Below, one piece after another: positions 6,274-36,551 of a stretch of DNA of 36,551 nt. The stretch comes from FCB group bacterium (lineage in GTDB: Bacteria > Fidelibacterota > Marinisomatia > Marinisomatales > JAADGP01), in the NCBI GenBank assembly GCA_013152315.1, contig JAADGP010000120.1:1-36551 (forward strand), read 5' to 3'. The notes under the pieces were generated by a model that was not told the origin of the DNA, searched no databases, and worked only from the letters and a program-made list of their open reading frames with translations. A program made the translations under genes and the position numbers. Position 1 is the stretch's first letter; every line of letters begins with the position of its first letter.

Positions 6274-7875
6274 ATGACTTTAGAAGAACTTGGATTAACA
6301 GATATTGGTGAAATAAAAGTAAACCGTACTCCCGAACAATTGATCGAAGACGCGATCCGTTGGGATGAAGGTAAATTAGGCATGCGGGGAGTATTGATGG
6401 TAGATACCGGCAGGTATACGGGGCGCAGTCCGCAGGATAAATATTTCGTGGAAGAAGACTATTCAAAAGATAATCTGTGGTGGGGAGCCGTTAACCGGCC
6501 GACGGATGAGAAAATATTTGACGAATTGTTCGCGAAAGTTGTCGCTTACTACAACAAGAATGAGGATAATCGCGGAGCGTATGTATTTAACGGTTACTGC
6601 GGTGCCAATCCGGATTACCGGATGAATGTACGGATAATTGCCAAGAAAGCCTGGCAGAATATTTTCGCGAACAATATGTTTATCCGGCCCGAACGATCGG
6701 AGTTAAAAGATTTTGTTCCCGATTTTACGATTATTAACGCTTCCGATGTTATCGATGAGGATTGGAAGAAACATGGACATCATTCCGAAACGTTTATCAT
6801 TTTTAATTTAAAGAAACGCCTGGCGATTATCGGGGGAACGGAATACGGCGGCGAAATGAAGAAGGGAATTTTCTCGGTAATGCATTATTATCTGCCTCAA
6901 AAAGGTGTCTTGTCCATGCACTGCTCCGCCAATGTCGATCAGAACGGAGGGAATCCGGCTCTCTTTTTTGGTCTATCGGGAACCGGAAAAACCACTCTGA
7001 GCACCGATCCCGAACGACCCCTGATCGGGGACGACGAACACGGTTGGTCTGATGACGGCATCTTCAATTTTGAAGGGGGATGCTATGCCAAGGCGATTGA
7101 TTTGAATCCGGAAGAGGAACCGGAGATCTATAATACTATCAAACACGGCACGTTGGCTGAAAATGTCGTTTTCGATCCCGAAACCCGGATTATCGATTTC
7201 TCCGATAAAACCAAGACTGAAAACACCCGTCTTTGTTATCCTATTGAATTTATAGAAAATTCGTTAGCAGCGAAGGGGAAACCCAGTGTCGCCGGTCATC
7301 CCAATACAATTATCTTTTTGGCGTGTGATGCTTACGGCATATTACCCCCGGTCGCGAAACTTTCGCCGGAACAGGCTATGTACCATTTTATCAGCGGTTA
7401 TACCGCGAAAGTAGCGGGAACGGAACGGGGCGTGACCGAACCGGTAGCGACTTTTTCTCCCTGTTATGGCGGGCCGTTTCTGACCCTTCATCCCTTAAAA
7501 TATGCGGAACTTTTAAGGGATCTGATGAATAAACATAATGTGTCTGCCTACTTAGTGAACACCGGATGGGTTGGAGCCAGCGCCAGTTCCGGTGCGAAAA
7601 GAATAAAATTACCGATTACCAGGCAGATAATTCGTACGATATTAAATGGTAGCATTGAAAAGGCGGAATTTCAAACCGATCCTTATTTCGGGGTGCAGGT
7701 TCCCACTGCCCTGCAAAACATTGATTCCGATTTGCTTATTCCCCTCAACGCCTGGAAAGATGAGTCGGAATACCACGCTACCGCGAAAGAGTTGGTTGCC
7801 AAGTTCCGGTCAAATTTTAAGGAATACGATCTGGGCGATCCAATTATTAGAAACGCAGGACCAATTTCAAACTGA
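6274..7875 (+). CDS. pckA: Phosphoenolpyruvate carboxykinase (ATP)
   Basis: 533 aa; 'FFGLSGTGKTTLSTDPERPLIGDDEHGW' kinase motif characteristic of ATP-PEPCK. Confidence 0.97.
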   Translation: MTLEELGLTDIGEIKVNRTPEQLIEDAIRWDEGKLGMRGVLMVDTGRYTGRSPQDKYFVEEDYSKDNLWWGAVNRPTDEKIFDELFAKVVAYYNKNEDNRGAYVFNGYCGANPDYRMNVRIIAKKAWQNIFANNMFIRPERSELKDFVPDFTIINASDVIDEDWKKHGHHSETFIIFNLKKRLAIIGGTEYGGEMKKGIFSVMHYYLPQKGVLSMHCSANVDQNGGNPALFFGLSGTGKTTLSTDPERPLIGDDEHGWSDDGIFNFEGGCYAKAIDLNPEEEPEIYNTIKHGTLAENVVFDPETRIIDFSDKTKTENTRLCYPIEFIENSLAAKGKPSVAGHPNTIIFLACDAYGILPPVAKLSPEQAMYHFISGYTAKVAGTERGVTEPVATFSPCYGGPFLTLHPLKYAELLRDLMNKHNVSAYLVNTGWVGASASSGAKRIKLPITRQIIRTILNGSIEKAEFQTDPYFGVQVPTALQNIDSDLLIPLNAWKDESEYHATAKELVAKFRSNFKEYDLGDPIIRNAGPISN

Positions 7876-7898
7876 AAACCCAAGAAAGGGAGGTAGCC

Positions 7899-8186
7899 TT
7901 GAACGTTGAATTCACAGCCAGACATTTCCACGCCCCGGACAACCTCAGGGAATACGCTGAAAGGGAAGTGCAACGAATCACCAAATATTACAACCGCGCT
8001 ATTCAGTGCCAGGTGATTCTTTATCGCGATAATAATCACTATACGGCGGAAATCAATCTTTCGGTCCCACAGCGAAAACTCAACGTCAAAGAAACCACTG
8101 ATAATGTTACCAAATCCATTGATCATGCGGTGGATAAAATGATTGCCCGTGTTTCCAAAATTAAGGAAAAGATGAATAAATATTAG
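7899..8186 (+). CDS. hpf: Ribosome hibernation-promoting factor / RaiA family (short form)
   Basis: 95 aa beta-alpha HPF-like protein 'NVEFTARHFHAPDNLREYAEREVQRITKYYNRA...'; TTG start preceded by GGGAGG Shine-Dalgarno. Confidence 0.88.
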   Translation: MNVEFTARHFHAPDNLREYAEREVQRITKYYNRAIQCQVILYRDNNHYTAEINLSVPQRKLNVKETTDNVTKSIDHAVDKMIARVSKIKEKMNKY

Positions 8187-8215
8187 GTAGCTGACCGATA
8201 CTCTGTGACATATAG

Positions 8216-9130
8216 ATGAAAGCGATATTACCTGTAGCGGGCTACGGGACCCGGTTACGTCCCCATACCGATAAGATTCAAAAAACGTTGTTGCCGATTG
8301 CGGGCAAAGCGACCCTGGATCATATTGTGGAACCCTTGCTGGATTCCGGGGTGAGTGAAATTACATTCATCATTGGTCACCTGGGGGATCAGGTTGTTTC
8401 ACATATGAAAAAACATACGGGCCGTTTTGTTTATATTGAACAGAAAGAACGTCTTGGGTTGGGCCATGCCGTGCTCCAGGGGTTAGCCGACAAAGATGAA
8501 CCGGTATTGGTTCAGCTGGGCGATACGATTTTCGATATTAATTTGGACGATATGAGGGCCCCTGACAGAAATATAATTGCCGTGGGGGAAGTGGATGACC
8601 CATCGCGTTTCGGAATTGTGGAATTGGAAGGGAAACGAATAACCCGGTTTCATGAAAAAGTAAAGAATCCACCCAGCAATCTGGCGATCACGGGCTTGTA
8701 TTACTTTTACAGTCAGCGAAAATTAAAACGCGCTATTGAACAGTTGATTGCCAGGGATATTCGTACCAAAGGTGAATATCAAATAACCGACGCCTTTTCA
8801 ATTATGCTTGAGCAGGGAGAATTGTTTGAAGCCTATTTAATGGATGAATGGTACGATACCGGTGTCCCTGAAACGTATTTGGAAACCAACCGGAAATTAT
8901 TGAAACCGGACCATGATGAATATCCCGGCACATTAATTAACGAACCGGTTCATATTGGCAAAGGCTGTACGATTGAACGTTCCGTTATCGGTCCCTTTGT
9001 AACAGTCATGGACAATTGCACCCTGATTGACTGCAATATAAGCGATAGCATCATCCTGGAGGGGGCCGCATTAGAAGGACAGAAATTTTCGCACCGCATT
9101 GTGGCCGGTGACGGTTCCGAATACTGTTAA
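8216..9130 (+). CDS. Sugar-phosphate nucleotidyltransferase (RmlA/GlmU-like)
   Basis: 'MKAILPVAGYGTRLRPHTDKIQKTLLPIAGKATLDH' nucleotidyltransferase signature and C-terminal left-handed-helix-like repeats. Confidence 0.88.
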   Translation: MKAILPVAGYGTRLRPHTDKIQKTLLPIAGKATLDHIVEPLLDSGVSEITFIIGHLGDQVVSHMKKHTGRFVYIEQKERLGLGHAVLQGLADKDEPVLVQLGDTIFDINLDDMRAPDRNIIAVGEVDDPSRFGIVELEGKRITRFHEKVKNPPSNLAITGLYYFYSQRKLKRAIEQLIARDIRTKGEYQITDAFSIMLEQGELFEAYLMDEWYDTGVPETYLETNRKLLKPDHDEYPGTLINEPVHIGKGCTIERSVIGPFVTVMDNCTLIDCNISDSIILEGAALEGQKFSHRIVAGDGSEYC

Positions 9131-28186: not shown

Positions 28187-29023
<837 letters not shown>

Positions 29024-29077: not shown

Positions 29078-29425
29078 ATGTTAATGATCAGATCAATTGT
29101 CAGGACGGAAAAGGCCGATGCGGTGCTTGCCGGACTTTTGGAAGCGGGATATCCTGCCGTAACAAGAATTTCCGTATATGGGCGTGGGAAACAGCGAGGT
29201 TTGAAAGTCGGGAGTGTTACCTATGATGAACTTCCCAAGGAATTGCTTCTCACGGTAATAAAAGAGAAAGATAAGGATTTCGTGGTCAAAACGATTATCG
29301 AGGCGGCGAAAACAGGGGATATGGGAGCTTATGGTGAGACGGGAAAATTTTCGTTTCTCCCGTACTCGAGGCCTATACTATCAGTTCCGGTGTTAAAGAA
29401 GTATCAACCAAGGAGTGAACCGTGA
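29078..29425 (+). CDS. nifI1: Nitrogenase-associated PII protein NifI1, apparently frameshifted near its C-terminus
   Basis: 'MLMIRSIVRTEKADAVLAGLLEAGYPAVTRISVYGRGKQRGLKVGSVTYDELPK' PII; after 'GAYG' the canonical DGKIFVSPVLEAYTISSGVKEVSTKE* lies in another frame ending at 29418. Confidence 0.9.
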   Translation: MLMIRSIVRTEKADAVLAGLLEAGYPAVTRISVYGRGKQRGLKVGSVTYDELPKELLLTVIKEKDKDFVVKTIIEAAKTGDMGAYGETGKFSFLPYSRPILSVPVLKKYQPRSEP

Positions 29426-29829
29426 AAGAAGTTATGGCAATGATTCGCATTAACCGGATAAATGCGACTAAAAGGGCGCTTAATGAGGTTGGAATAACCT
29501 CTTTTACAGCTACCGGGAAGGTTCTTGGACGCGGAAAAGGATTGGTTGATTTCCGGATCCTTGAAGGCGCCAAGGAAGGACGCCAAGAGGCAATTTCCTT
29601 ATTGGGAGATGGTCCCCGACTCGTACCTAAAAGACTCATAACGGTAATTGTCTCGGACAATTTTGTCGAAAGGACGGTAAAGGCGATCATTAAGGCAAAC
29701 CACACCGGGAATGCCGGTGACGGAAAAATATTTGTTTTGCCCATTCTGGAGGCCACGCGCGTCAGGACGGGAGAAACCGTAAGAGGGGAATCGGGAGGAA
29801 CCGTTCTTGATTCTTCAGGAGGACTATAA
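29422..29829 (+). CDS. nifI2: Nitrogenase-associated PII protein NifI2
   Basis: GTG start; PII fold with extended T-loop region and intact 'GNAGDGKIFVLPILEATRVRTGE' C-terminus; located between nifI1 and nifD. Confidence 0.93.
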   Translation: MKEVMAMIRINRINATKRALNEVGITSFTATGKVLGRGKGLVDFRILEGAKEGRQEAISLLGDGPRLVPKRLITVIVSDNFVERTVKAIIKANHTGNAGDGKIFVLPILEATRVRTGETVRGESGGTVLDSSGGL

Positions 29830-29831
29830 TA

Positions 29832-31454
29832 ATGGAACACAATATCCCAAAACCACCAACCGCGATAAAGGAGGAAATCCTTTCAAAGTATCCGCCGAAA
29901 GTCGCGCGGAAAAGAAATAAATCCATTGTTATCAGGGATCCGGAGGACGAACAGAAAATCCAGGCGAACGTCCGAACTATTCCCGGAATTATTACACAAC
30001 GCGGATGTGCTTATGCCGGTTGCAAAGGAGTGGTCCTCGGTCCCACCAGGGACATCATAAACATTACCCACGGACCGATTGGTTGCGGTTTTTACAGTTG
30101 GCTGACAAGAAGAAATCAAACCAAACCCGAAGGCGCCGAAGGTGAGAATTATATGACCTACTGTTTTTCGACGGATATGCAGGACTCAAATATCGTTTTC
30201 GGCGGCGAAAAGAAACTGAGGGAGGCTATTCAGGAAGCCTACGATCTCTTTAAGCCCAAGGCAATCAGTGTTTTTTCTACCTGTCCCGTCGGTTTGATCG
30301 GAGATGACGTCCACGCGATTGCCAAGGAAATGAAAAAGAAACTGGGAATTAATGTTTTTGCATTCAGTTGTGAGGGGTATAAAGGGGTAAGCCAGTCCGC
30401 CGGTCACCACATCGCCAACAACGGTCTCTTCAAACACGTAGTGGGTCTCGATGATACGGTAAGGGAAGGTGATTTCAAGATCAATATGCTTGGTGAATAC
30501 AATATCGGCGGCGACGCGTTTGAACTGGAACGTATTCTTGAGTTGGCGGGGTTTACGCTGATTTCCACCTTCAGCGGGAACTCGGATATGGGCCGCTTCG
30601 CGAATTCACACACAGCGGATCTTAACGTGATCATGTGTCACCGGTCCATCAATTACATGGCCGAGATGATGGAAACGAAATTCGGGATTCCCTGGTTGAA
30701 GGTGAATTTTACCGGCGCGAAAGCCACGGCAAAATCCCTGCGAAAAATGGCCCAGTATTTCGGTGATAAAAAACTTATTAACCGGGTGGAGAAACTTATC
30801 AGGAATGAAATGGCGGCGGTAAACAAGGTTTTAAGCGAAACGAGACCGCGGTGCGAAGGGAAACTGGCCATGCTCTTCGTCGGTGGCTCACGGGCCCATC
30901 ATTACCAGGAGCTGTTTAATGAACTGGGAATGAAAACGGTTTGCGCCGGCTATGAATTCGGCCACCGCGATGATTATGAGGGCCGTGATGTTCTGCCCGA
31001 CATAAAAATCGACGCCGACAGTCGCAATATTGAAGAGCTGTTTGTCGAAAAGGATGAAAAACGATATCGTCCCCGGAAAACTTCAGAAGAAATCCTGGAG
31101 CTCAAGAAAAAGGGCCTCGAAATTGGCGAATATAATGGATTAATGGCGGAGATGAGTAAACAGTCGCTTGTTGTGGATGATATTACCCATTATGAAACGG
31201 AAAAATTAATTGAATTCTACAAGCCGCACATATTCTGTGCCGGAATCAAGGAAAAATATGTTGTGCAGAAAATGGGTGTCCCTTTGAAACAGTTGCACAG
31301 TTACGATTATGGCGGGCCCTATGCCGGATTCCGGGGGGCGATCAATTTCTACCAGGAAATTGATCGTATGGTCAATACCCGCATTTGGGATTTGATAACA
31401 CCTCCCTGGGAAAAGAATGGGGCGGAAATCACGGCTGAATTTGTCTCTTTGTAG
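29832..31454 (+). CDS. nifD: Nitrogenase molybdenum-iron protein alpha chain
   Basis: P-cluster Cys motifs 'RGCAYAGCKG', 'GPIGCGFYSW', 'STCPVGLIGDD'; 'SQSAGHHIAN'; cofactor Cys 'IMCHRSINY' and His 'LHSYDYGGPYAGF'. Confidence 0.97.
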   Translation: MEHNIPKPPTAIKEEILSKYPPKVARKRNKSIVIRDPEDEQKIQANVRTIPGIITQRGCAYAGCKGVVLGPTRDIINITHGPIGCGFYSWLTRRNQTKPEGAEGENYMTYCFSTDMQDSNIVFGGEKKLREAIQEAYDLFKPKAISVFSTCPVGLIGDDVHAIAKEMKKKLGINVFAFSCEGYKGVSQSAGHHIANNGLFKHVVGLDDTVREGDFKINMLGEYNIGGDAFELERILELAGFTLISTFSGNSDMGRFANSHTADLNVIMCHRSINYMAEMMETKFGIPWLKVNFTGAKATAKSLRKMAQYFGDKKLINRVEKLIRNEMAAVNKVLSETRPRCEGKLAMLFVGGSRAHHYQELFNELGMKTVCAGYEFGHRDDYEGRDVLPDIKIDADSRNIEELFVEKDEKRYRPRKTSEEILELKKKGLEIGEYNGLMAEMSKQSLVVDDITHYETEKLIEFYKPHIFCAGIKEKYVVQKMGVPLKQLHSYDYGGPYAGFRGAINFYQEIDRMVNTRIWDLITPPWEKNGAEITAEFVSL

Positions 31455-31478: not shown

Positions 31479-32861
31479 ATGCTTTTACGACATACACCTT
31501 CTGAAATTAAAGAAAGAAATGCGCTTACAATAAATCCTGCCAAGACTTGCCAGCCGATTGGAGCGATGTATGCCGCGCTGGGAATCCATGGTTGTTTGCC
31601 ACACAGCCATGGTTCCCAGGGCTGTTGTGCCTACCATAGAAGTACCCTTACCCGACACTTTAAAGAGCCCGTCATGGCCGCCACCAGTTCCTTTACGGAA
31701 GGGGCCTCGGTGTTTGGAGGACAGGCCAACCTGCTCCAGGCCATTAACAACATGTTTACCGTGTATACTCCCGAAGTGATTGCGGTTCATACCACGTGCC
31801 TTTCGGAAACAATTGGGGATGACATAAACCAAATTATCCGCAAGGCCTATGAAGATGGAAAAGTTCCGGAAGGAAAGCATGTGATTCACTGCAACACTCC
31901 CAGTTATGTAGGCTCGCATGTTACCGGCTATGCGAATATGGTGGCCGGAATGGTGAAATATTTTTCCGAATCAACAGGGAGGTACCGTGATCAGATTAAT
32001 ATTATTCCGGGGTGGATCGAGCCGTCGGATATGAGGGAAATAAAAAGAATCGCCAAGGAGATGGGTGTGAAAATCATTCTTTTTCCCGATACCTCCGATG
32101 TCCTGGACGCTCCTCAAAAGGGGAAACACATGTTTTATCCCGAGGGGGGTGTTACGATACCGGATCTGAGAAGTACGGGAGACAGCAAACTGACAATTGC
32201 GCTCGGGCCCTTCGGCACCGAAAGCGCAGCCGCCTTGTTGGATACCAAATGCAAAGTGAAATATGAATTGCTCGATCTCCCCATCGGGATTTCCGCTACG
32301 GACAGATTTATCAGCGGTTTGAGCCGGGCAGCCTGTGTGGAAGTACCGGTATCGATTACCGCCGAAAGGGGAAGGGCGGTCGATATTATTACCGATATGC
32401 AACAATACTTCTATAATAAAAAGGTTGCCTTGTTCGGCGATCCGGACCAACTGATGGCGCTTACCGAATTCCTGGTGGACCTTGAAATGAAACCCATCCA
32501 TATTATTAGTGGTACGCCCGGTAAACAGTTTGTGCCAAGGATCAGAAACATCCTGAAAGACAAGGTCCCCAATGCAAATGTCAGGAATGGTGCAAATGCC
32601 GATCTATTTCTGCTGCACCAGCTCATTAAGAACGAACCCGTGGACCTTCTCGTCGGCAATACCTACGGTAAATATATCGCCAGGGACGAGGATATTCCTT
32701 TTGTGCGAATGGGATTCCCGATTCTGGACAGGATTGGTCATAGTTATTTCCCAACGGTCGGCTATTCCGGCGCGATGCGTTTACTGGAAACGATCTTGTC
32801 CGCCCTGATGGACCGGCAGGACAGGGATGCTCCGGAAGAAAGTTTCGAACTTGTGATGTAA
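31479..32861 (+). CDS. nifK: Nitrogenase molybdenum-iron protein beta chain
   Basis: 'CQPIGAMYAALGIHGCLPHSHGSQGCCAYHR' and 'TTCLSETIGDDI'. Confidence 0.97.
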   Translation: MLLRHTPSEIKERNALTINPAKTCQPIGAMYAALGIHGCLPHSHGSQGCCAYHRSTLTRHFKEPVMAATSSFTEGASVFGGQANLLQAINNMFTVYTPEVIAVHTTCLSETIGDDINQIIRKAYEDGKVPEGKHVIHCNTPSYVGSHVTGYANMVAGMVKYFSESTGRYRDQINIIPGWIEPSDMREIKRIAKEMGVKIILFPDTSDVLDAPQKGKHMFYPEGGVTIPDLRSTGDSKLTIALGPFGTESAAALLDTKCKVKYELLDLPIGISATDRFISGLSRAACVEVPVSITAERGRAVDIITDMQQYFYNKKVALFGDPDQLMALTEFLVDLEMKPIHIISGTPGKQFVPRIRNILKDKVPNANVRNGANADLFLLHQLIKNEPVDLLVGNTYGKYIARDEDIPFVRMGFPILDRIGHSYFPTVGYSGAMRLLETILSALMDRQDRDAPEESFELVM

Positions 32862-32987: not shown

Positions 32988-34355
32988 GTGAAAATGGTTA
33001 AAGTATTGGCACAGCGTGAAAAGCAGGTTTTTCGCAAGGGCGAAGACACGTTCAACATCGGTTGTGAACGCAATAGCGTTGCCGGATCCGTGAGCCAACG
33101 GGCTTGCGTGTTTTGCGGATCACGGGTAGTGCTTTACCCGATTGCCGATGCCTTGCATCTTATTCATGGACCGATCGGATGTGCTGCTTACACCTGGGAC
33201 ATCCGGGGTGCTCTTTCGTCCGGACCGAAACTCCACAGATTGAGTTTTTCGACGGATATTCAGGAGAAAAACGTTATCTACGGCGGTGAAAAAAAACTGT
33301 ACAATTCCCTTATTGAATTAATCGACATCTACCATCCCAAAGCAGCGTTCGTGTATGCCACCTGCATAGTGGGGATTATCGGCGATGATGTCGACGCGGT
33401 TTGTAAACGGGTTGCCGGTGAAAAAGGGATTCCGGTACTGCCTGTTCATTCCGAGGGCTTTAAGGGGACTAAAAAAGACGGTTACAGGGCTGCCTGTGAA
33501 GCGCTCCTGAAAATCATCGGCCGCGAAGCGACCGACAAAGTCCCCGAATTCAGCATCAATATTCTTGGTGACTTCAACATTGCCGGGGAAACGTGGGTTA
33601 TTCGGGATTATTACCGCCGGATGGGCGTTGAAGTGGTTTCCGTCATGACCGGAGATGGTAGGGTGGCGGATATCGGCCGTTCACATGGGGCTTCGTTAAA
33701 TGTAATCCAATGTTCCGGTTCCATGATGTATCTGGCGAAAAAGATGAAGGAAAAGTATGGTATCCCTTATATCCGTGTTTCCTATTTCGGGATTGAAGAT
33801 ACCTCGGAGGCGCTCTTTGCCGTGGCTCGTTTTTTTAACGACACGGAAATTCTGGAACGCACCGGCCTGCTTGTCGAATCGGAAGTTGAACGGGTTAATC
33901 GGCAAATACAACGTTATCGGAAAAAACTGAAAGGCCGGAAAGCCACGATTTATGTCGGGGGCGCGTTCAAGGCCTTTTCTCTGATCAAGGCCTTACATTT
34001 ACTGGGTATGGAGGTAGCCGTTGTCGGGTCTCAGACCGGCAACATCGACGACTACACGCGACTTAAGGACATGTGCCTCCCGGGTACGATTATTCTCGAC
34101 GATTCCAATCCGGTTGAACTGGCGAATTTTTCACTCGAGAAGGAAGTGGATTTGTTTATCGGAGGTGTTAAGGAAAGACCCCTGGCTTACAAACTGGGGA
34201 TAGGCTTTTGTGATCACAACCATGAGCGAAAACAAATATTGGCCGGTTACGAAGGAATGGTGAATTTTGCAAAAGAGGTTTATTCCTCGGTGATGAGTCC
34301 TGTTTGGAGGTTTTCTCCACGAAAGACAGGGAGAATGGCAAATGATATCGGCTGA
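32988..34355 (+). CDS. nifE: Nitrogenase FeMo-cofactor scaffold protein NifE
   Basis: NifD paralogue with 'RACVFCGSRVVL', 'GPIGCAAYTWDIRGA', 'ATCIVGIIGDDV'; downstream of nifK. Confidence 0.94.
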   Translation: MKMVKVLAQREKQVFRKGEDTFNIGCERNSVAGSVSQRACVFCGSRVVLYPIADALHLIHGPIGCAAYTWDIRGALSSGPKLHRLSFSTDIQEKNVIYGGEKKLYNSLIELIDIYHPKAAFVYATCIVGIIGDDVDAVCKRVAGEKGIPVLPVHSEGFKGTKKDGYRAACEALLKIIGREATDKVPEFSINILGDFNIAGETWVIRDYYRRMGVEVVSVMTGDGRVADIGRSHGASLNVIQCSGSMMYLAKKMKEKYGIPYIRVSYFGIEDTSEALFAVARFFNDTEILERTGLLVESEVERVNRQIQRYRKKLKGRKATIYVGGAFKAFSLIKALHLLGMEVAVVGSQTGNIDDYTRLKDMCLPGTIILDDSNPVELANFSLEKEVDLFIGGVKERPLAYKLGIGFCDHNHERKQILAGYEGMVNFAKEVYSSVMSPVWRFSPRKTGRMANDIG

Positions 34356-35685
34356 GAAAAACTTTACGGCCACAACCAATCCCTGCAAGTTGTGCGCTCC
34401 TTTGGGAGCCTCCCTGGTATTTAAGGGTGTGCGGGATGCGTTGTGCCTTCTGCACGGTTCACAGGGATGCGCGACCTATATCCGAAGATATCTTATCAGC
34501 CATTTCAGGGAGCCGGTCGATATTGCTTCATCGAGTTTTGCGGAGGCCGCTGCCGTTTTCGGCGGTGGCGATAACCTTAAAAAAGCTTTAATGAATGTTG
34601 GCAGTCAGTACCACCCTGAAATTATTGGTGTCGCCACCACTTGTCTCAGCGAAACCATCGGGGATAATGTGCCGATGTATATAAGCGAATTCAAAAAGGC
34701 GAATGCCGGAACGGATTTACCGGAGATTATTCATGTCTCCACACCAAGTTACCGGGGGACACACATGGATGGATTTTATGAATCCGTAAAGGCCTTGGTA
34801 AAGTCATTGGCGCGCGGGGGCGACCGTACCGATCGGATTGCCCTGTTTCCCGGTTTTGTTTCACCCGCGGATATGCGTTATCTGAAAGAAATTTTTTCCG
34901 ATTTTGGTTTGCCCTGGGTGATGCTTCCCGATTATTCGGAAACATTGGACGGTCCCTTGTGGAAAGAATATCAAAGAATCCCAAAGGGAGGAACAACCTA
35001 TGATGAGATTGTTTCCCTGGGATGCTCACAGGCAACCATCGAATTTGGGCACACCCTGAAAACGGGCGGGAGTGCCGGTGAGAAGTATTCCGTGCCGCGG
35101 TATACCCTTGGAATGCCGATCGGCATAACCCTCAGTGATGAATTTTTCAGTGTATTGGGACAATTGAGCGGGAAAGAAATGCCGGCGAAATATGGGGAGG
35201 AACGCGGAAGACTCATTGATGCTTATGCCGATGCCCACAAATATATTTTCGAAAAAAAAGCAATTGTATTCGGCGAGGAGGACCTGGTCATAGCAATGAC
35301 ATCGTTCCTGCTTGAAATCGGTGTCGTCCCGGTGCTCTGTGCTTCCGGTTCCAAAAGCGGCACCATGAAAAAAACGATATCGGAAATGGGAGCCGGCTAC
35401 GGACGATCGATTTCGGTCCGTGAAGGCGCCGACTTTGCCGATATTTTGGATGAAGCAAGAATTTTGCGTCCCGATTTCATGGTGGGGAACAGCAAAGGCT
35501 ACGCAATAGCCCGTGAATTAGATATTCCCCTGGTTCGTATCGGCTTTCCGGTACACGATCGCATTGGCGGGGGGCGGTTATTGCATTTGGGATATCGGGG
35601 CAGCCAGGAACTTTTTGATCGTATCGTCAACACCATTATCGAGTGTACCCAGGCAAAATCGCCCGTGGGACATTCGTATATGTAA
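34342..35685 (+). CDS. nifN: Nitrogenase FeMo-cofactor scaffold protein NifN
   Basis: NifK paralogue with 'NPCKLCAPLGASLVFKGV', 'HGSQGCATYIRRYLISHFREP', 'TTCLSETIGDN'; overlaps nifE end. Confidence 0.94.
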   Translation: MISAEKNFTATTNPCKLCAPLGASLVFKGVRDALCLLHGSQGCATYIRRYLISHFREPVDIASSSFAEAAAVFGGGDNLKKALMNVGSQYHPEIIGVATTCLSETIGDNVPMYISEFKKANAGTDLPEIIHVSTPSYRGTHMDGFYESVKALVKSLARGGDRTDRIALFPGFVSPADMRYLKEIFSDFGLPWVMLPDYSETLDGPLWKEYQRIPKGGTTYDEIVSLGCSQATIEFGHTLKTGGSAGEKYSVPRYTLGMPIGITLSDEFFSVLGQLSGKEMPAKYGEERGRLIDAYADAHKYIFEKKAIVFGEEDLVIAMTSFLLEIGVVPVLCASGSKSGTMKKTISEMGAGYGRSISVREGADFADILDEARILRPDFMVGNSKGYAIARELDIPLVRIGFPVHDRIGGGRLLHLGYRGSQELFDRIVNTIIECTQAKSPVGHSYM

Positions 35686-35699
35686 GAGAGGAATGGAAT

Positions 35700-36551
35700 G
35701 TGAAAGCGGAAACATTAGGAAATAAATCCACGCATCCCTGTTTTGATTTCGATGCCAGGCATCGATATGCCAGGGTTCACCTCCCGGTTGCGGCTAAATG
35801 CAATATTAAATGCAAATTTTGTGACCGGCGATATAGTTGTCTCAACGAAAACCGGCCCGGTGTATCCACGGAGGTCCTCTCACCCCGGCAGGCATTGGCC
35901 TATTTTGATATGCTTACCAAACGATTGAAAAATATTTCGGTTGTCGGTATCGCCGGCCCGGGAGATGCTTTCGCGACTCCGGGAAAGACCGTTGAAACAT
36001 TGCGATTAATACGGGGGAAATATCCGTCGATGCAGTTTTGCGTGGCCACCAACGGTTTTAATGTGTGGCCTTATATCGGCATATTGAAGAATGTCGGTGT
36101 GACGCATATGACGATTACCGTAAATGCCGTTGATCCGGAAATCGGTGAGAAAATCTATGCCTGGGCAAGAGAGGGAAGGACAATTTATCGCGGCCGGAAA
36201 GCCGCGGAAATATTAATAGAGCGTCAATTAGCCGTGGTTAAGGCGCTTGGGAAGGAGGGAATCGCCGTTAAAGTAAATACCGTGCTTATACCGGGTGTAA
36301 ATGACGAGCATGTTGTTGACATAGCGAAAAAGGCCGGTTCTCTGGGCGCCTATACCTTCAACGCCATGCCCCTTTATCCCTTGGCCGGCACCGAGTTCGA
36401 GGACATTGAAGCGCCTACCGCAAAGGCGCTGTCCGCGATCCGTGAACAATGCGGAAAGTATCTTCGTCAAATGGCACATTGCCAACGGTGCAGGGCGGAT
36501 GCGGCCGGCATGTTGAATGAACCGATGAGCGATGACCTGAAAAATAGTCTC
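35700..36551 (+). CDS. nifB: Nitrogenase cofactor biosynthesis radical-SAM protein NifB (truncated by window end)
   Basis: GTG start after agagagg; translation by eye gives 'HRYARVHLPVAAKCNIKCKFCDRRYSCLNENRPGVSTEVLSPRQAL' (CxxxCxxC radical SAM). Not in the ORF track because it runs off the edge. Confidence 0.93.
   Translation, partial: MKAETLGNKSTHPCFDFDARHRYARVHLPVAAKCNIKCKFCDRRYSCLNENRPGVSTEVLSPRQALAYFDMLTKRLKNISVVGIAGPGDAFATPGKTVETLRLIRGKYPSMQFCVATNGFNVWPYIGILKNVGVTHMTITVNAVDPEIGEKIYAWAREGRTIYRGRKAAEILIERQLAVVKALGKEGIAVKVNTVLIPGVNDEHVVDIAKKAGSLGAYTFNAMPLYPLAGTEFEDIEAPTAKALSAIREQCGKYLRQMAHCQRCRADAAGMLNEPMSDDLKNSL

Follow-up and report, generated by a model that had tools for sequence, protein, structure and literature searches.

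A private GA duplication breaks the assembled nifI1 of an uncultured diazotroph: a possible recent null allele

Introduction

Ammonium switch-off of nitrogenase in Methanococcus requires both NifI proteins (PMC9765008). NifI1 belongs to the PII superfamily and is encoded in nifH-I1-I2-D-K-E-N clusters. In GlnK of methanogens ATP is contacted by Gly87, Lys90 and Phe92 together with Arg101 and Arg103 of the neighbouring subunit (PMC8395244). Draft bacterial genomes contain spurious pseudogenes that arise through the assembler, the platform or low coverage (PMC11017572). The heptamer G_GGA_AAG is highly prone to −1 shifts in E. coli, and phage tail genes use similar sites (PMC5009743).

Here we describe a nifI1 gene in a 36.5-kb window, by which we mean the whole stretch of DNA analysed. 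The gene resembles NifI1 of the clusters above in operon position and in residues 1-86, but its zero-frame product is without the GDGK loop, the last strand and the C-terminus.

Results and Discussion

The nifI1 frame is broken at a GA repeat

The gene is located between nifH and nifI2-nifDK, the position expected of nifI1 (Table 1). Translation reproduced both the 115-aa frame and the alternative frame from 29338 that were quoted in the preliminary description. The zero-frame product terminates in ...GAYGETGKFSFLPYSRPILSVPVLKKYQPRSEP, and DGKIFVSPVLEAYTISSGVKEVSTKE is encoded from 29338 in the other frame, with its stop codon at 29416-29418; read in the old frame, the displaced tail gives the NifI1 peptide IFVSPVLEAYTISSGVK. 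The P-II (Pfam) match pairs residues 1-81 with positions 1-84 of 102 and the domain end is absent, as both the GDGK[IV]F block and the C-terminus are out of frame in the assembled gene and found in the other frame. Judged from its sequence, the gene is a disrupted nifI1, not a working one. This bears out the earlier proposal of a nifI1 that adjoins an intact nifI2 and has lost a canonical PII end, and also the GA repeat as the break point. NifI1 of the congener has GGCGACGGG where the window has GGTGAGACGGG.

The window is part of a genome (G000) of 2.08 Mb in 163 contigs, with 91.5% completeness and 3.5% contamination. One nifI1 copy was found in this assembled genome (about 91% complete), where a second, intact copy was sought and none was found. 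Three P-II genes other than nifI1 and nifI2 are present, as in the congener.

Table 1. Features of the nif cluster and of the second broken gene
Feature	Position	Strand	Remarks
nifH	28202..29023	+	intact; comparison with congener
nifI1, zero frame, 115 aa	29078..29425	+	PII fold to about residue 86, out-of-frame tail after
GAGA	29336..29339	+	2-nt tandem duplication absent from congener and other relatives; sequence comparison
Displaced original C-terminus and stop, other frame	29338..29418	+	translation
Slippery heptamer G_GGA_AAA	29341..29347	+	zero-frame register for −1 shift
nifI2	29422..29829	+	intact, 135 aa like congener's; GTG start overlapped by shifted-frame stop 29423-29425
nifD	29832..31454	+	intact; comparison with congener
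nifK	31479..32861	+	intact; comparison with congener
nifE	32988..34355	+	intact; comparison with congener
nifN (by position)	34342..35685	+	intact; NifK/NifN family matches below cut-off
Heavy-metal P-type ATPase, split	G000:C29 (L124) 6890-8873		5-nt deletion at 7367 and TTAAG tandem duplication at 8596; congener gene intact

The change is private and its neighbours are intact

One congener was compared (G001, contig C86, 60,511 bases). Over residues 1-86 its NifI1 shares 98% identity with that of the window, and it continues in frame to 112 aa. In a species-genome collection, the G-[D/E]-G-K-[I/V]-F block was in the NifI1 frame at all 80 related loci. Since the block is in frame both in the congener and at every one of these loci, the GA insertion is private to G000 among the genomes compared, and the relatives do not carry the frame-breaking change, which is the pattern of a pseudogene formed by recent frameshift. 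A short C-terminus common to relatives, raised earlier as an argument against a lesion, is thus not what the comparison gave. Downstream of the block a single locus departs, L032 (Desulfobacteraceae S24.Bin080), whose nifI1 (2065 onward) reads YTISSG and then runs into NifX/NifB-type cofactor-binding-domain-like sequence in place of the usual end and nifI2; this arrangement may be a fusion, a deletion or a misassembly.

The six neighbouring genes nifH, nifI2, nifD, nifK, nifE and nifN are all unbroken relative to the congener. A nifB gene starts at 35721 and is cut off by the contig end (36551); more nifB-like pieces are located on G000:C57 and are perhaps the rest of it.

The displaced tail bears the mark of selection in the old frame

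Of the 17 bases that separate the window from the congener upstream of the break, 15 are at third positions. Across the 21 codons of the displaced core, all five differences were synonymous in the frame of the relatives (simulated neutral P about 0.001), and over the whole displaced tail six codons differ synonymously and two nonsynonymously (P about 0.005). No relaxation of selection after the lesion was found in the tail, where the substitutions are mostly synonymous in the old frame. Old-frame selection has acted on the tail during almost the whole period since the two lineages split, and the lesion is therefore either very recent or not real.

Two explanations follow from this and the choice between them is close to even. 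A real and very recent null allele of nifI1 is our leading reading, held at slightly below an even chance. For it we count the private change, the single nifI1 copy, a short tandem duplication that is not a homopolymer change and the loss of invariant residues described below; against it stand the purifying selection in the displaced tail and a second broken gene, which has two frame-breaking 5-nt indels. The other explanation, to which we give a substantial though somewhat smaller probability, is an assembly or consensus artefact, where nifI1 is intact in the cells and low coverage, a few faulty reads or poorly resolved strain variation in the metagenome-assembled genome produced the additional GA. 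The five synonymous core substitutions count in favour of such an artefact, as does the well-documented occurrence of spurious pseudogenes noted above (PMC11017572). Our case is like those in being a single private indel in a conserved gene of a draft assembly, and nothing except the gene affected sets it apart from them.

Frame-breaking indels are rare in the shared genes sampled

We calibrated the indel by aligning the window to G001:C86 and reading the gaps against the ORF lists. There were many gaps, and those in shared genes were multiples of three, mutually compensating or placed at gene ends; the gap at 29338 was the sole uncompensated frame-breaking indel found in shared genes of the window. 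When the comparison was widened to about 129 shared ORFs with about 42,300 residues, window included, G000 had one more broken gene, a heavy-metal P-type ATPase (Table 1), and G001 had no convincing break. This low frequency speaks against an artefact, as does the fact that the nifI1 indel is not a homopolymer error; neither are the ATPase indels homopolymer changes. The assembly has N runs of variable length (27-115 bases) in other contigs, which suggests paired short-read assembly, where errors of this kind would be uncommon.

The ATPase itself points the other way. Between its two lesions 138 of the 184 differences from the congener are at third positions, so that from its sequence the gene looks strongly constrained. 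A constrained gene with two lesions, both of which would have to be recent, raises the odds of consensus errors, and thereby supports the artefact explanation. A P-II gene is located directly upstream of this ATPase (6282-6602). An apparent break on G000:C72 was rejected as a scaffold N run, and a 1-nt difference between L109 and L191 was left out of the count, as the stretch looks non-coding.

Expected effect on NifI1 and on switch-off

According to the alignment, the zero-frame product has lost D87, G88, K89, F91, T100, S102 and G104, residues that are invariant in the relatives and in part counterparts of the ATP contacts of GlnK (PMC8395244). Because the lost tail holds nucleotide-binding residues, the product is probably null. 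The closest solved match for NifI1 was a PII protein, 9p1x chain H, and the same entry also contains a NifI2-like chain; the match to chain H falls from 94 bits to 67 bits in the zero-frame product and stops at residue 83. Foldseek confirmed the PII fold and nothing beyond, and a paper on a NifI1 cryo-EM structure was not found in the literature searched. AlphaFold2 models point in the same direction, with a mean pLDDT of 80 and a last strand at 89-94 for NifI1 of the congener and residues 81-98 below pLDDT 50 in the zero-frame product; both were made on shallow alignments and are taken as supporting evidence only. The two arginines by which GlnK contacts ATP correspond to columns 100 and 102 of the A1 alignment, and there 18/18 aligned bacterial NifI1 carry Thr and Ser; NifI2 of the window keeps Arg-Val-Arg and 9p1x_H has Thr and Arg.

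Possibly, the new tail makes a functional, selected NifI1 variant. The shifted frame is indeed open to 29425, and its end overlaps the nifI2 start, but this tail is common to no relative, it is modelled at low confidence and the substitutions track the other frame, and we regard such a variant as extremely improbable.

Returning to a real lesion, we propose that a 2-nt tandem duplication of the replication-slippage type, GA to GAGA, would have arisen very recently in nifI1 of the sampled lineage. The resulting protein would retain PII residues 1-86 and lose the GDGK loop, the last core strand and the nucleotide-binding C-terminal region, giving a null product. Translation of nifI2 would probably be spared, given that its start codon is overlapped by the new stop. 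By analogy with Methanococcus, nitrogenase would then evade direct switch-off by ammonium/2-oxoglutarate, and ammonium switch-off would be impaired. DraT, another route to switch-off, had no match in the genome, nor in any control genome, which makes this negative uninformative. If real, the change means that nifI1 has been lost naturally, as a null allele, in a wild and uncultured diazotroph whose nif cluster is otherwise intact, and such cells might go on fixing nitrogen once ammonium appears. If it is an artefact, it illustrates the caution needed when regulatory losses are inferred from single metagenome-assembled genomes.

A slippery heptamer directly past the break

According to the preliminary description, the sequence shows no canonical slippery heptamer. 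This was wrong, as G_GGA_AAA is found in exact register directly past the break; no other X_XXY_YYZ site occurs where the two nifI1 frames overlap. A −1 slip at G_GGA_AAA leads to ...GAYGETGKIFVSPVLEAYTISSGVKEVSTKE, by which the tail is regained with a loop one residue longer than in the congener. A real lesion could in this way be partly rescued, with NifI1 made at low level and switch-off weakened instead of lost. The window site shares the X_XXY_YYZ pattern and the right register with the shift-prone phage heptamer G_GGA_AAG (PMC5009743), and a GGGAG is located 13 nt upstream, both of which favour a rescue. However, the heptamer ends in A and not in G, no downstream stimulatory structure stands out (fold z-score +0.89), and the site is not conserved for recoding. 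A conserved two-frame arrangement was not found, as 80/80 loci are in one frame at the site, and no relative needs the shift. The GGG AAA codons occur in 3/80 relatives, the congener among them, and in sequence terms the heptamer is a chance product of inherited Gly-Lys codons. Taken together, programmed recoding of nifI1 is not supported and we consider a partial rescue very unlikely, although some full-length NifI1 might be produced by slippage at this heptamer.
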